DNA of 32,274 nt from Pseudomonadota bacterium (GTDB lineage: Bacteria > Pseudomonadota > Gammaproteobacteria > Acidiferrobacterales > Acidiferrobacteraceae): positions 1 through 32,274 of the forward strand of contig JAKAXM010000024.1 of NCBI GenBank assembly GCA_021816625.1. The letters are read 5' to 3'. The notes beneath the pieces are model-generated. The model worked only from the letters and a program-made list of their open reading frames with translations. It did not search any database and was not told where the DNA came from. The translations under genes and the position numbers were made by a program. Positions 6,648 through 13,628 of this stretch are shown piece after piece; within the stretch, counting starts at the first letter, position 1; the number at the start of each line of letters is the position of its first letter.

Positions 6648-6920
6648 ATGAGAAAGCAACTGACAGCAATCGGCAGTTCCTTGTTGTTGATGACGATGCT
6701 CACGGCCTGCCACCACAAATCGAACAACGCCGGATCCAGCGGCTCCGGCGGGGGCGGTGCGGGGACGACGGCGCCTTCCGGCGGGCCGGGCGGCGCAGGG
6801 TCGGCCGGTAGCGGTGCTGGCGCTGGTACCGGTTCCTCGGGCGGCGGTAGTGGCGGCGGTTCGGGCGCTGGCACGGGGACCGGGGGCGGCACGGGCTCGA
6901 GCGGGGGTAGCGGAAGCTAA
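6648..6920 (+). CDS. Gly/Ser-rich lipoprotein
   Basis: The 90-residue product begins MRKQLTAIGSSLLLMTML and has a clear lipobox, LTAC, at about residues 18-21, so it should be lipidated at Cys21 and membrane-anchored. The mature part is almost entirely Gly, Ser, Ala and Thr in low-complexity runs, with no recognisable fold. AAGGAG precedes the ATG. The next gene begins 10 nt after its stop and also encodes an exported protein, so the two are probably co-transcribed. Function unknown; a flexible spacer or surface-coating role is only a guess. Confidence 0.75.
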   Translation: MRKQLTAIGSSLLLMTMLTACHHKSNNAGSSGSGGGGAGTTAPSGGPGGAGSAGSGAGAGTGSSGGGSGGGSGAGTGTGGGTGSSGGSGS

Positions 6921-8118: not shown

Positions 8119-8241
8119 GCGCGCTCGAGGGATGCACGCCCGCTGTGGGTCCGGCTACCGGGGTAGGCCCAGCAAGGGAGGAGGACGAGCCCGCCGGAAA
8201 TCGGGTAAGCTTGGTCGTCGCTTCGCTCACGAGGACCTTCG

Positions 8242-8376
8242 ATGTATCTTCATGTCGCGCTTACGCCCCTCATTTCACTGGTGGCGGGGATCCTGATCCT
8301 CGTCGTTCCGCGTCTCCTCAATTACATCGTGGCCATTTATCTCATCGCCATAGGGATCTTGGGTTTGGTTCATTAG
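8242..8376 (+). CDS. DUF3096 small membrane protein
   Basis: A 44-residue protein starting MYLHVALTPLISLVAGILIL, then PRLLNYIVAIYLIAIGILGL: two hydrophobic segments around a PRLLNYIVAIYL core that is the hallmark of DUF3096. GAGGA at 8231-8235 lies 6 nt before the ATG. The length fits the family (about 40-60). It ends two nucleotides before the start of the tetraheme cytochrome gene, so they are probably co-translated. The family has no known function; I infer only that this protein sits in the inner membrane. Confidence 0.85.
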   Translation: MYLHVALTPLISLVAGILILVVPRLLNYIVAIYLIAIGILGLVH

Positions 8377-8378
8377 CC

Positions 8379-9755
8379 ATGCGCTGGGCGGCGCTTTGCG
8401 CAGCGCTTGTGCTGACCGCGCAGGCCGCTTGCGCGAGGCCCATCGCGGCGCTGTCCCCGGGGGCGCGCCTCGCCCTGCAGGGCGCCGATGGGGTCGTGCC
8501 CTGCGCCGTTTGCCATGGGGCACGGGGACAAGGCCGCCCGCACTTTGCGTATCCGCATCTTGCGGGGCTTGGGGCCCCTTACGTCCTGGATACCCTGCGT
8601 GCCTTTGCCGATGGGCGCCGTCTCAACGGTATCATGACGCCCATCGCCCGCCGGCTTTCAGCGCAGGCGATGCGCTCCGTCGCCCTTTACTATGCGCAGT
8701 TCCGGCCACGTCCTCCCCATTGGCCAGGATCTCTGAGCCTAAGCCGGCTCGGGCGCGGGCGGCGCTACTACCAGTATGGCGCCCTGTCCGACCACCTCAT
8801 AGCCTGCGCCCGCTGTCATGGGCGGCGCGGCCACGGTCAAGGCGCACGCTTTCCCTGGATCGCGGGCCAATCTCGGGCCTACCTCATAGAGCAATTGCGC
8901 TCGTTCCAGGCCGGTGCGCGCACCGGCCATGCCTTGGGGCTCATGCGCCATGCGGCGCGGCCCTTGAGTCGCCACCAAATCGCCGATATCGCGCTCTATG
9001 TGCGTCTGCTCGGGGCCCGGCCGCCGCTTGCGCTCAGGCCGCATGCTTGGGTGCGCAGCGCGCGTCCCATCGTGCCGCGGGGTTTCATGCCGCCGCCGCG
9101 TGCAGCCATTCCGGCAACGGTGTTCGGGCGCGCCGCCCGGCGCGGCCGGGCGATCTTTGACGACACCCCCCGCTATGCCCGCGCCTATGTCGGCAACGCC
9201 TTGTCGTGTCGGGACTGTCATTTGGGGGAGGGCCGTGCGCCTCATGCCGGGCCGCTGTGGGCCGCGGCCGCGCTCTATCCTCGCGTTTACCGGGGACGCG
9301 TGACGACGCTCGCGCAACGGATTCGGGATGCCTTTGCCCACAGCGAAGCGGGCCGCGCCCCGCCGCTGGCAAGCCCGGTGCTGACCGATCTTCTGGCCTA
9401 CATCCATTGGATGAGCCGGGGCGAGGTGATCGGCGCGCCAGCGCCCGGACGCGGTTACCCAAGTCTTGCGCCCCTGCACGGGCCGCCGGACAGCGCGCAA
9501 GGAGCGGTGCTCTACCATAGCCGATGCGCGGTTTGCCACGGTGAACGCGGGGCCGGGAGGCGTTATAATGGACGCCTCGTTTTCCCGCCGGTCCTAGGGG
9601 CTGCAAGCTATGGGCGCACGGCAAGCCTTGCGCAGGAGCCTCTGCTTGCGGCCTTTCTCAAGGCCACCATGCCTTACGGTGAGGCCGGCACATTGAGTCG
9701 GCGCGAGGCCTACGATCTGGCGGCCTACCTGGACGCTGCCCCGCAGGGCCGGTAA
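8379..9755 (+). CDS. exported tetraheme cytochrome c, TsdB-TsdA-type fusion
   Basis: A 458-residue protein with a signal peptide (MRWAALCAALVLTAQAACA) and four CXXCH haem sites at residues 42-46, 143-147, 277-281 and 383-387, so it acts in the periplasm. The first half resembles TsdB, a dihaem c4-type electron carrier (CAVCHG, then PHLAGL and MTPIA). The second half resembles TsdA thiosulfate dehydrogenase: LSCRDCHLGEGR, PLWAAAALYPRVYRG, a GRGYPSL stretch, CAVCHGERGAG, and TMPYGEAG with the likely Met ligand. Such fusions are known in some sulfur oxidisers and oxidise thiosulfate to tetrathionate. Odd: where TsdA normally has a haem-ligating Cys (RI-x-x-C-F-x-x-S), this protein reads RIRDAFAHS, with Ala at 318. 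A different reaction is therefore possible. Confidence 0.78.
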   Translation: MRWAALCAALVLTAQAACARPIAALSPGARLALQGADGVVPCAVCHGARGQGRPHFAYPHLAGLGAPYVLDTLRAFADGRRLNGIMTPIARRLSAQAMRSVALYYAQFRPRPPHWPGSLSLSRLGRGRRYYQYGALSDHLIACARCHGRRGHGQGARFPWIAGQSRAYLIEQLRSFQAGARTGHALGLMRHAARPLSRHQIADIALYVRLLGARPPLALRPHAWVRSARPIVPRGFMPPPRAAIPATVFGRAARRGRAIFDDTPRYARAYVGNALSCRDCHLGEGRAPHAGPLWAAAALYPRVYRGRVTTLAQRIRDAFAHSEAGRAPPLASPVLTDLLAYIHWMSRGEVIGAPAPGRGYPSLAPLHGPPDSAQGAVLYHSRCAVCHGERGAGRRYNGRLVFPPVLGAASYGRTASLAQEPLLAAFLKATMPYGEAGTLSRREAYDLAAYLDAAPQGR

Positions 9756-10062: not shown

Positions 10063-11220
10063 GTGAAAGTCATACCAGTGCGATTGCGACCGCTTCATGC
10101 GCGTTTTGTGGATGTCGCTGATCGGGTCCTGGCGCCGCACGCGGCCGAGGTCGATCGGGCGGCGGCATGGCCTGCCGCGAGTTTCGCGGCGCTGGGCGAG
10201 GCCGGACTCATGGGTCTGCATGTGACAAAAAGGCTCGGGGGGCTCGAGGAGGGCTTCGCCGCGCTTGTCATGGCGACCGAGACCCTGGCGCAGGCCTGTG
10301 CCTCTTCGGCCCTCTGTTACGGCATGCATTGCGTCGCCTCGGCAGTCATCGCGGCCAAGGCGACCAAGGATCACGAGGAACGTTATCTCGAACCCATCGC
10401 CCGCGGCCAGCACGTCACGAGCCTCGCCTTATCGGAAACGGGTCATGGGGCGCACGTCTATCTGGCGGAGACGAGCCTTACGCAAGCGGCATCGGAGTAT
10501 CGAGTAACCGGGGTCAAGCAGTTCGTGACCAGCGGCGGCCATGCCGACTCCTATGTCGTGTCGACGCGGGCGAGCGTAAGCAATGAACAAGGCGAGTTTT
10601 CCTGCGTTTTGGTCGACAAGACGGCCCCCGGGCTGACATGGCTCGAGCCCTGGAACGGGCTCGGCCTGCGCGGGAACTCGTCGCGCGGCCTGCAGCTCGA
10701 CGAGGCGCGCGTGCCGCTTGCGAATCTGTTGGGCAACGAGGGGGATGAAGTGTGGTATTTCTTCCAGGTCATAGCGCCCTATTTCCTGTTGGCCATGGCC
10801 GGCGTCTACAACGGGATCGCACAGGCGGCGCTCACCGGGGCCCTAAACCACGTCCGGCAAAGGACCTTTAGCCACTCAGGTGAGGCCTTGGCGCGGGCCG
10901 ATATGGTTCAGGACAAGGTGGCAGGGCTCTGGGCCCGTGTGCAGCAAGCCCGCCTTCTCGCCTATCACGCGGCCGAACTCGCCGACGCCAATGACCCGGA
11001 TGCCCTCTTGGCGCTGCTTGCGAGCAAGGCAAGTGCCGGAGAGATGGTGGTGCACGTCACGAGCGAGGCGATGGCCTTGTGTGGCGGGATTGGCTATCGC
11101 GAGAATGCGGTGCAGGCGCGCCTTCTGCGCGATGCCCAAGCCGCGCCCGTCATGTCACCGACGGCGGCACTCCTACGTCTTTGGGTGGGCCGGCATTTGC
11201 TTGGCGTGCCGCTTCTCTAG
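10063..11220 (+). CDS. acyl-CoA dehydrogenase family flavoprotein
   Basis: The 385-residue product has the ACAD layout: N-terminal helices (about 1-115, with GLMGLHVTKRLGG), a central beta domain (ALSETGHGAHV and LGLRGNSSRGLQLDEARVP) and C-terminal helices ending GGIGYRENAVQARLLRDAQ. The family uses FAD to desaturate acyl-CoA thioesters. The stretch after RDA, normally ending YEGT with the catalytic Glu, reads RDAQAAPVMSPT, so Ser replaces Glu here. The enzyme may use another base or be a non-dehydrogenase member. The start is a GTG with AAGGAAGGGG about 9 nt upstream. No fatty-acid genes are adjacent, so the substrate is unknown. Confidence 0.85.
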   Translation: MKVIPVRLRPLHARFVDVADRVLAPHAAEVDRAAAWPAASFAALGEAGLMGLHVTKRLGGLEEGFAALVMATETLAQACASSALCYGMHCVASAVIAAKATKDHEERYLEPIARGQHVTSLALSETGHGAHVYLAETSLTQAASEYRVTGVKQFVTSGGHADSYVVSTRASVSNEQGEFSCVLVDKTAPGLTWLEPWNGLGLRGNSSRGLQLDEARVPLANLLGNEGDEVWYFFQVIAPYFLLAMAGVYNGIAQAALTGALNHVRQRTFSHSGEALARADMVQDKVAGLWARVQQARLLAYHAAELADANDPDALLALLASKASAGEMVVHVTSEAMALCGGIGYRENAVQARLLRDAQAAPVMSPTAALLRLWVGRHLLGVPLL

Positions 11221-11237
11221 CCGCTTTTCTCATAACC

Positions 11238-13628
11238 ATGCACCCCGCGCCTCTGCTCTTCGTTGATGCCCGTGCCAGCGGCCGTCCGGCAAGCGCCTTG
11301 TCGGAGCAGGCGCGGGCGGCGGCAGAATCGGCGCAGATCGAGTTTCGCCGGGTCTCGGTCGGCGCGGCCGATGAGCTGGGGCAAGTCCCCGGACCTCCGC
11401 CCTTGCTCATCGTGTTGGCCCCCGATGTGGCCCCCTTGTTCGCCGTTACGCGGCGTGCCCGCACCCTATGGCCCGATGCCCTCATCGTGTTGCTGGCCCC
11501 TGCCATTCGTCTGCTCGCGCTCCGTAATGAGCTTACCATCCGCGGGCTCTTTGGAGATCTGTACCGCACGCAGGACACGGCGAGCACGCGTTTGTGCCAT
11601 GACTTCGTGCATCACATTACCGAAGCCCAGCGGCGCCGTTCCCTGCATACGACCTTGAGCGCGATTAATGTCCAGCTGACCCGCGCAGGGCCGGCGATCG
11701 CCAACGTCCGCGGGTTATTGCAGTCAAACCAGTATCTTGCAAGCGTCCTTTTGAATGCCCACGACGCGATCGCCTTCCTGGATGCCCAAGGGGTCATCAG
11801 TCTCTGGAACAATGGCGCCGTGGCCCTGCTCGGCTATGACGAAGGGGCGGTCCTTGGGCGCCCTCTGAGTTTTCTGGCCTCCCGCGATGAACCGGCCGAC
11901 CGCCCCGATCTCCTTACCGTGTTGAGCGCGGTCATGGATGGTCGGGCCGCCGTGCGGCAAGATCTCGTGCTGCGTGACGCAGCCGGCCGGCGCATCGCCG
12001 TCGACGTGACCTTGGCGGAGGTTTTTGACGATGAGGGGCAGCGCCTCGGGTTCTCGCTATTCATGCGCGACATTACCGTTCGCCGCCGCTACGAAGAGTC
12101 GCTTGCCGCCGAGCGCGAGCGATTGCTCGTGACCCTACGCAGCATTGGGGATGGGGTCATCACCACCGATATCGAGGGGCGGATCACCTTGCTCAATCCG
12201 GTCGCCGAGGCCCTGTGCGGCTGGCCGCTCGCCGAGGCCTTGGGTGAACCTCTGGAGCAGGTTTTTCGCATCGTCGACGACAAGACCCTCGAGGTGTGTG
12301 AGGATCCTGTGCGCCAGGTGTTGCGGACCAACGCCACGGTGGAGCTTGCCCATAATACGGCCCTGGTCAGCCGTGACGGAACCCGGCGCGTGATAGCCGA
12401 TAGCGGCGCGCCGATCCGCGATGCCGAGGGCCTCATCGTCGGCGTGGTGCTGGTGTTTCGGGACGTTACCGAAAAACAGCGGGTCGAGGATGCCTTGCTG
12501 CGTGCTCGCCAACTCGAGGCCATCGGCTTTCTCGCGGGCGGCATCGCTCATGATTTCAACAATATCCTGACGGCCTTGTTTGGTAATATCAGTCTGATGC
12601 GGCTGCATACGCCGCCTGGATCTGCCACGCTGCCGCTTCTGGATCAGGCCGAGCAGGCGTTTTTTCGGGCCCGTGACCTGACCCAGCAACTGCTTACCTT
12701 CGCCAAGGGCGGGGCCCCGGTAAAACGGGTTGGGTCGCTCAGCGATCTGCTGCGCGAGACCGCGCGTTTCTTATTGCATGGGACCAAGGTGTCGGTGGAA
12801 TTTGTCTTCCCGGATGGTTTGTGGACGGCGGAGTTTGATGCGAGCCAGATGTCACAGGCGGTGTCCAATATCATTTTAAATGCGGTCCAGGCCATGCCGG
12901 AGGGCGGCCAGATCCGGATCGGGGCGCATAACGTTTTTCTGAAGTCCCGGGAGGTTCCGCCGCTCAAGGAGGGCCGCTACGTGCGTTTTACGATCCAGGA
13001 TGAGGGGCCCGGTATCCCGGAGGCGGATCGGGAGCGCGTCTTTCACCCGTACTTTACGACCAAAGACGCAGGAACGGGGCTTGGGCTTGCCACCACATAC
13101 TCCGTGATTCAGCGGCATGGCGGTCATGTCGGTGTGGCCGAGAGCGCCCGCGGCGCCCTGTTCGAGGTCTATCTGCCGGCGAGCACCACCGCCCTGGCGG
13201 CCGATGGTCACGGGGACTTACGCGGACACAGGCCGGACCAGGGTTCTGGGTATATCGTGGTGATGGACGACGAGGAGCCGGTGCGCAAGGTCTGTGCGGA
13301 GATCTTGGGACACCTGGGCTACCGCGTCGAAACCGTGGCTGACGGGGAGGCCTTGGTGACCTTATATGCCGAGCGGCTGACAACGGGGTCGGTGCCGGAC
13401 GCGGTCATCGTTGACCTTACTGTGCCCGGGGGCATGGACGGTCGGGAGGCGGCGGGGCGCGTGCTGGCCTTGGATCCCAAGGCCAAGCTGATCGTATCGA
13501 GCGGCTATTGCATGGATCCTGTGATGGCCGATTACAAGAACTACGGCTTTGTCGGTGTGATCGCGAAGCCGTATGATGTCCGAGCGATGGCGGCGCAGTT
13601 GGCGGATGTGACGCGGGCCCCGCGTTAG
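11238..13628 (+). CDS. hybrid sensor histidine kinase with two PAS domains and a receiver
   Basis: A 796-residue soluble-looking signalling protein without clear membrane spans. Order: an N-terminal alpha/beta region (about 1-130) that looks like a degenerate receiver lacking the phospho-Asp; PAS 1 (about 170-290); PAS 2 (about 294-420, GDGVITTDIEGRITLLNP); HisKA with GGIAHDFNN and phospho-His at 438; HATPase (N-box NIILNAVQAMP, G-boxes DEGPGIP and GTGLGLAT); and a C-terminal receiver (about 672-790) with acidic pocket MDDEE, phospho-Asp 726 and Lys in IAKPYD. It should autophosphorylate and pass phosphate to its own receiver. No partner regulator is adjacent. The ATG at 11238 follows the acyl-CoA dehydrogenase stop by 17 nt, with no strong ribosome site. 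Confidence 0.9.
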   Translation: MHPAPLLFVDARASGRPASALSEQARAAAESAQIEFRRVSVGAADELGQVPGPPPLLIVLAPDVAPLFAVTRRARTLWPDALIVLLAPAIRLLALRNELTIRGLFGDLYRTQDTASTRLCHDFVHHITEAQRRRSLHTTLSAINVQLTRAGPAIANVRGLLQSNQYLASVLLNAHDAIAFLDAQGVISLWNNGAVALLGYDEGAVLGRPLSFLASRDEPADRPDLLTVLSAVMDGRAAVRQDLVLRDAAGRRIAVDVTLAEVFDDEGQRLGFSLFMRDITVRRRYEESLAAERERLLVTLRSIGDGVITTDIEGRITLLNPVAEALCGWPLAEALGEPLEQVFRIVDDKTLEVCEDPVRQVLRTNATVELAHNTALVSRDGTRRVIADSGAPIRDAEGLIVGVVLVFRDVTEKQRVEDALLRARQLEAIGFLAGGIAHDFNNILTALFGNISLMRLHTPPGSATLPLLDQAEQAFFRARDLTQQLLTFAKGGAPVKRVGSLSDLLRETARFLLHGTKVSVEFVFPDGLWTAEFDASQMSQAVSNIILNAVQAMPEGGQIRIGAHNVFLKSREVPPLKEGRYVRFTIQDEGPGIPEADRERVFHPYFTTKDAGTGLGLATTYSVIQRHGGHVGVAESARGALFEVYLPASTTALAADGHGDLRGHRPDQGSGYIVVMDDEEPVRKVCAEILGHLGYRVETVADGEALVTLYAERLTTGSVPDAVIVDLTVPGGMDGREAAGRVLALDPKAKLIVSSGYCMDPVMADYKNYGFVGVIAKPYDVRAMAAQLADVTRAPR

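Follow-up and report, generated by a model that had tools for sequence, protein, structure and literature searches.

A TsdBA-type tetrahaem cytochrome without the haem-ligating cysteine in one genus of the Acidiferrobacteraceae

TsdA is the enzyme that joins two thiosulfate molecules by means of one special cysteine, and this haem-ligating cysteine is central to the accepted chemistry of both TsdA and SoxA. Here we describe a TsdB-TsdA fusion protein in which, as judged from comparison across genomes, the cysteine is lost throughout a genus and the remainder of the thiosulfate-binding site has been remodelled as well. The gene was found in a stretch of 32,274 nucleotides (contig JAKAXM010000024.1 of assembly GCA_021816625.1), referred to here as the window. 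An initial annotation of the window had remarked on the missing cysteine in this one protein and missed its absence from the whole genus, the rebuilding of the pocket and the loss of the gene from several genus members. On the alignments the genus-wide variant is real, and no earlier description of it was found in the open-licence literature that we searched, where none of the listed titles and beginnings of abstracts describes a Cys-less TsdA or SoxA protein. Because the cysteine is lost, the pocket rebuilt and selection retained, the protein probably does a different job now.

The fusion gene is contained in a forward-strand open reading frame at 8145-9755 with a probable ATG start at 8379 (Table 1); the start codon and the signal peptide (about 21 amino acids) were picked by eye. 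The CxxCH motifs of the 458-residue product are at residues 42, 143, 277 and 383, and Met86 and Met189 are assumed, by analogy with cytochrome c4, to be the distal ligands of the TsdB haems.

Table 1. Features of the fusion gene in the window. "Genus" refers to the ten copies aligned from the genus and "outside" to the 98 distinct TsdA sequences from elsewhere.
Feature	Coordinates	Strand	Basis
DUF3096 membrane protein ORF, 44 aa, stops 2 bases upstream of fusion ATG	8242..8376	+	Pfam PF11295 E 1.8e-18, sequence
Tetrahaem TsdB-TsdA fusion gene, Cys-less TsdA half, 458 aa	8379..9755	+	homology searches, sequence
CAVCH, first haem of c4-like TsdB half	8502..8516	+	sequence
Met86 (GIMTPIA), presumed distal ligand of TsdB haem A	8634..8636	+	conserved, 9/9 intact genus copies
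CARCH, second haem of TsdB half	8805..8819	+	sequence
Met189 (LGLMR), presumed distal ligand of TsdB haem B	8943..8945	+	conserved, 9/9 intact genus copies
CRDCH, haem 1 of TsdA half (catalytic haem in TsdA), His281 kept	9207..9221	+	His 10/10 genus, 98/98 outside
Tyr304 at AvTsdA Arg82 (precursor Arg109), thiosulfate contact	9288..9290	+	Tyr 8, His 2 of 10 genus; placement of adjacent 2-residue deletion uncertain
Arg314 = AvTsdA Arg92 (precursor Arg119), kept	9318..9320	+	Arg 10/10 genus, 98/98 outside
Ala318 (GCC) replacing haem 1 Cys ligand, AvTsdA Cys96	9330..9332	+	Ala 10/10 genus, Cys 98/98 outside
His321, ligand candidate of the initial annotation, non-conserved	9339..9341	+	His 5, Gln 4, Asp 1 of 10 genus
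Ser322 = AvTsdA Ser100 (precursor Ser127), kept	9342..9344	+	Ser 10/10 genus, 98/98 outside
Met345 (WMSRG), weak alternative ligand candidate	9411..9413	+	Met 10/10 genus, 10/98 Cys-bearing proteins
CAVCH, haem 2 of TsdA half	9525..9539	+	sequence
GRTAS, residues 412-416, replacing N-x-G-A-G loop of electron-transfer domain (Av 190-194)	9612..9626	+	Asn190 to Gly 10/10, Gly194 to Ser/Gln 10/10
Met431 (ATMPYG), haem 2 distal ligand, kept; Thr at AvTsdA Lys208	9669..9671	+	Met 10/10 genus, 98/98 outside; at 208 Thr 9, Ala 1

Both halves of the protein have homologs of known structure in the TsdA family, and the fusion architecture is shared. The best match of the whole protein is PDB entry 5lo9 (E 1.4e-57), with the chains of Allochromatium vinosum TsdA (AvTsdA; PDB 4wq7 and others) at about 1e-40; matches to cytochromes c4 reach 2.6e-19. 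Entry 5lo9, whose title reads only 'Cytochrome C' and which we take to be the TsdBA of Marichromatium purpuratum, has the same order of a c4-like dihaem TsdB followed by a dihaem TsdA and, like the window protein, a haem 2 methionine without an adjoining lysine; it differs in having Cys (RIQGCF), Lys at position 82 and an NWGAG loop where the window protein has Ala, Tyr and GRTAS. When searched alone with phmmer, the TsdA half matched the AvTsdA chains with a best E of 4e-41 and 5lo9 with 4.5e-38, and it aligns with AvTsdA over nearly its full length. Equivalents of AvTsdA His53, Arg92, Ser100, His164 and Met209 are kept, whereas Cys96, Arg82 and Gly194 are absent and Thr stands at Lys208. The CxxCH motifs of haems 1 and 2 and the haem 2 methionine are present in all ten genus rows. 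The Pfam domain PF21342 is common to SoxA and the window protein (34.3 bits, cut-off 27), but the protein scores only 29.4 bits with the NCBIfam SoxA model TIGR04484 (cut-off 110), and the same genome encodes a separate SoxA-like protein with Cys. These searches agree with the initial annotation, which had assigned this half to the TsdA family.

In the phmmer alignment, Ala318 falls on the cysteine of the AvTsdA motif RIGDCFERS, with no gap from the haem-side arginine to the serine. Residues 314-325 of the window protein read RIRDAFAHSEAG, and the Ala318 codon (9330-9332) is GCC. The cysteine that is the distal ligand of haem 1 in TsdA enzymes is thus missing, and the genus alignment holds no nearby cysteine able to shift to its position. 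This bears out the initial annotation, which had reported an alanine in place of the ligand and no cysteine close by in a half extending from 9207, where CRDCH starts, to 9755, where the stop codon ends.

We determined how widespread the loss is using a profile of 17 TsdA halves and a search threshold of E 1e-25. Matches were obtained in 45 of 369 genomes of the class (the window's own included), 21 of 57 of the order and 43 of 398 of the phylum, the three samples overlapping. The sequence was read at 50 of the 52 places on the class list (G295 C17 and G324 C45 were left out), at all 25 for the order and at all 54 for the phylum, and rows with fewer than 195 letters, with fewer than two CxxCH motifs or identical to others were dropped. 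This left 98 distinct sequences from outside the genus, including AvTsdA and the 5lo9 protein, among which no pair is more than 99% identical and none is contained in another. All 98 have Cys at the haem 1 position, while all ten genus rows have Ala. The dropped rows with a letter in this column also have Cys, except for two with Glu, which represent additional N-terminal domains in L153 and L154, proteins whose main domain has Cys; L151 and L217 have no letter there. The survey covers genomes sampled from one phylum and a contig scan of 24 loci read in part. In the latter, the position was read in L004 (Ala; the same contig as that of genus member G010), L005 (Cys) and L006 (Cys), and most of the other loci match the haem 2 region only. 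A scan of viral contigs found no relative. It should be noted that L005 (9821-11737; Desulfobulbaceae metagenome-assembled genome, CAISPV010000020.1) carries, fused behind its Cys-bearing TsdA domain, a C-terminal region that has more CxxCH motifs and by eye resembles MauG/dihaem peroxidase.

Fourteen genomes of the genus were available. Nine of them, the window's included, carry an intact fusion gene, always with Ala, and a tenth, disrupted copy in G002 has Ala as well. At the same locus G009 has a remnant with stops, G004 retains a TsdB-half remnant with stops and in G013 the DUF3096 ORF alone is left; in G012, a genome 77% complete, neither the fusion gene nor the neighbouring glycerate kinase gene was found. 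The window comes from a draft assembly of 52 contigs, which could raise the suspicion of an error in sequencing, assembly or alignment. However, the alanine recurs in all nine intact orthologues and the disrupted tenth and is therefore not a sequencing error; its codon is GCC or GCT in the nine genus copies read, two base changes away from TGC or TGT, and the alignment is ungapped around it. With the other eight genomes refuting it, the chance of an artefact is negligible.

The cysteine is not the only part of the active site to have changed. AvTsdA holds thiosulfate through Arg109, Arg119, Ser127 and the main-chain amide of Gly221, the last of these in a loop of the electron-transfer domain that reaches into the active site (PMC4423706, in excerpt); with an offset of 27, which is our own, these precursor positions correspond to mature residues 82, 92, 100 and 194. 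Arg92 and Ser100 are kept in all ten genus copies, as in all 98 outside sequences. At position 82, by contrast, eight genus copies have Tyr and two have His, where 90 of the 98 outside sequences have Lys or Arg. AvTsdA residues 78-79 are deleted in all ten copies, and since this deletion could sit a few residues elsewhere, the identity of position 82 is likely rather than certain. The loop is altered at three positions: Asn190, present in 94 of 98 outside sequences, is Gly throughout the genus; Gly192 has become Arg in nine copies and Thr in the window's own; and Gly194, present in 88 of 98, is Ser in nine copies and Gln in one. Outside the genus, 25 columns are at least 95% conserved, and 22 of these are kept in all nine intact genus copies; of the other three, the Cys96 and Asn190 columns have changed in every intact copy and an Arg column in a single one. 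To judge by this distribution over columns, the changes appear directed at particular sites and not the result of overall erosion.

Codon comparisons indicate that the intact copies are maintained by selection. In the seven genus pairs with dS below 0.7, the dN/dS of the TsdA half (Nei-Gojobori) is 0.118-0.182, and in five of these seven its pN is lower than that of the TsdB half; deeper pairs with large or saturated dS were left out. One could imagine that the TsdA half has been defunct since the stem of the genus and survives through a useful, c4-like TsdB electron carrier, with the loss of the cysteine as a natural first step of slow decay. The broken or deleted copies in G002, G009, G004 and G013, and the further private changes in the window's own copy, would suit such a history. 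We nevertheless consider it unlikely, given the low dN/dS and pN of the TsdA half and the retention in the nine intact copies of the CxxCH motifs, the haem ligands and nearly all of the strongly conserved columns. Since four members of the genus have broken or deleted copies, the role of the protein is dispensable.

The fusion gene has a syntenic locus consisting of genes for Yip1, DUF3096, the fusion protein, an acyl-CoA dehydrogenase and a histidine kinase (in some genomes), glycerate kinase, a T2SSE-type ATPase and fructosamine kinase. In the window, the acyl-CoA dehydrogenase and PAS histidine kinase genes lie at 10063-13628, between the fusion and glycerate kinase genes; this pair is absent in G001, G003, G008 and G010, and a short kinase remnant is found in three of these four. 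Further upstream, after leuA, a lipoprotein-like ORF (6648-6920) has a Gly/Ser-rich low-complexity stretch, and the other genus loci tested match just its first 24-36 residues. In G015, which belongs to another genus of the same family, the fusion (L038) adjoins the same glycerate kinase and fructosamine kinase genes, but it has kept the cysteine (RIQACFRFSENG, codon TGT). A separate c4-like cytochrome gene (L058:7237-7812) lies between the two kinase genes of this genome, near its Cys-bearing TsdBA.

A first gene tree, which included long rows, placed the Ala clade apart from L038 and beside very long rows with weak support, and parsimony on it required one change of state. Once the long rows and the Cys column had been removed, the tree united the genus copies in a single clade (support 100) on a stem of length 0.81, with L038 as its sister at 93, a node that is not starred. 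As the syntenic TsdBA of the sister genus keeps the cysteine, we suggest that the loss most likely occurred on the genus stem.

What the loss would mean for haem 1 can be gauged from laboratory variants of the C. jejuni enzyme (CjTsdA). Its C138G variant, like the window protein, has a small non-ligating residue at the cysteine position; it differs in having been engineered as one substitution that left the pocket intact in other respects. In the natural variant the pocket is rebuilt, and the protein is maintained. The following values are as given in excerpts of the cited papers. C138G reduces tetrathionate with a Vmax of 2.63 (fitted 3.7) versus 1316 (2328) in the wild type and oxidizes thiosulfate at 2.1 versus 1265, about 0.2% of wild-type Vmax, with C138H and C138M lower still; it contains high-spin haem that is five-coordinate or water-ligated, and it hardly accumulates in the host (PMC5146829). 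The potential of CjTsdA haem 1 is near +94 mV in C138M and near -100 mV in C138H (PMC6879331), and a value of +75 mV after release of the cysteine, versus -134 mV before, has also been reported for haem 1 (PMC9562282). By analogy, haem 1 of the window protein may be open, water-ligated or weakly ligated, or newly ligated, with a higher potential unless the new ligand is His. The suggestion of the initial annotation that potential or substrate may have changed is thus sensible, the CjTsdA Cys variants being nearly inactive and some of them shifted in potential. Its proposal that a nearby histidine could take over as ligand did not hold up: the residue is there, though at position 321, three residues after the alanine, and not at 320, two residues on, and we reject it because it is not conserved across the genus. 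Met345 is a weak candidate, as its occurrence in Cys-bearing proteins shows that it is not tied to the loss of the cysteine. The Tyr or His at the old Arg82 position is the best protein candidate for a ligand. Two AlphaFold2 models made with four rows (mean pLDDT 40.9 for the whole protein and 55.5 for the TsdA half) were too poor for ligand geometry.

Canonical TsdA catalysis through the covalent cycle should therefore be lost in the window protein. The authors of the C138G study concluded that a covalent intermediate is not absolutely required (PMC5146829, in excerpt), and in principle a Cys-free route could still let the protein oxidize thiosulfate or reduce tetrathionate, with which the retention of Arg92 and Ser100 would be consistent. 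However, Arg82 and the GAG loop, both of which bind thiosulfate, have been lost as well, and the activity left without the cysteine in the laboratory is tiny, as the excerpted values above indicate; we deem this route improbable.

We tentatively favour, at a little short of even chances, a periplasmic tetrahaem cytochrome of TsdBA descent that would no longer perform TsdA catalysis and would have been retained for electron transfer. With the thiolate gone, haem 1 would be five-coordinate, water-ligated or ligated by a replacement (the Tyr or His at the old Arg82), and its potential would rise from the strongly negative range of Cys ligation toward that of the other haems; a four-haem relay would then replace an enzyme that coupled thiosulfate through its cysteine. 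In favour of this reading are the genus-wide loss of the cysteine, the altered substrate contacts, the 22 strongly conserved columns that stay, the low dN/dS of the TsdA half and the behaviour of the CjTsdA Cys variants. The haem-attachment motifs, the haem 2 methionine and the two TsdB methionines are all kept. TfcP of Myxococcus, with a distal Cys, sets a precedent for a cytochrome c that combines unusual ligation with a catalysis-free role (PMC8833165, in excerpt). Several observations point the other way. A pure relay would not need Arg92 and Ser100, although the conservation of two such residues is weak evidence because 101 of 224 positions are invariant within the genus. A haem 1 ligated by His would, by analogy with C138H, stay low in potential. 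No partner gene is evident among the neighbours of the fusion gene, and the fixed pocket changes fit a new catalytic role as well.

Such a role would arise if the loss of the cysteine had opened haem 1 to a small anion, a peroxide or a gas, bound beside the kept Arg92 and Ser100 and the new residues of the second-domain loop, in a pocket that also has the Tyr or His at the old Arg82 position, while haem 2 and TsdB served as electron wires; we regard this as possible, if doubtful. In its favour, the changes in the pocket are limited in number and fixed, not scattered, the arginine and serine are kept in all ten copies, nine of ten copies have gained an Arg at Av position 192, the stem branch is long, and C138G contains five-coordinate or water-ligated high-spin haem (PMC5146829, in excerpt). 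On the other hand, the window's own copy has Thr rather than Arg at position 192, the neighbouring genes suggest no substrate, and the gene has been lost in four members of the genus. From what can be read in the genes, the relay is ranked ahead of a new reactive site as the likelier role if either applies.

Genes for thiosulfate chemistry are still present in the window's genome. It encodes the SoxA-like protein (PF21342), with Cys at the expected place and its gene adjoining an ORF that by eye resembles SoxB, as well as a DoxD-DoxA fusion and two small mono-haem SoxA/TsdA-domain proteins. The latter, of a type about 150-180 amino acids long, are encoded at G000 C28:22716-23054 (L050), where Cys was seen, and at C13:35216-35476 (L069). 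By our own grouping, one group of these proteins occurs in all 14 genus genomes and a second in 13, and the copies read have Cys; they may have inherited the lost TsdA activity or have been its partners. DoxD occurs in 11 of the 14 genus genomes and also in G014 and G015. A takeover of the TsdA reaction by DoxDA as the cause of the cysteine loss is weakened by its presence in these two genomes; G015 has both DoxD and a Cys-bearing TsdBA, so DoxD does not explain the loss. Separately, G006 carries a broken remnant of a second TsdA (L092, C135:6186-6673), split over two frames and with Cys at the ligand position.

Homology alone would label this gene a thiosulfate dehydrogenase, a warning for the annotation of the family. 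If haem 1 has indeed become a new reactive site, the genus would possess a novel c-type haem enzyme acting on a small anion, a peroxide or a gas. In a clade that has discarded the cysteine while selection still maintains the protein, the laboratory Cys variants have a natural counterpart, which can reveal the purpose of the thiolate and how a catalytic haem site turns into something else.
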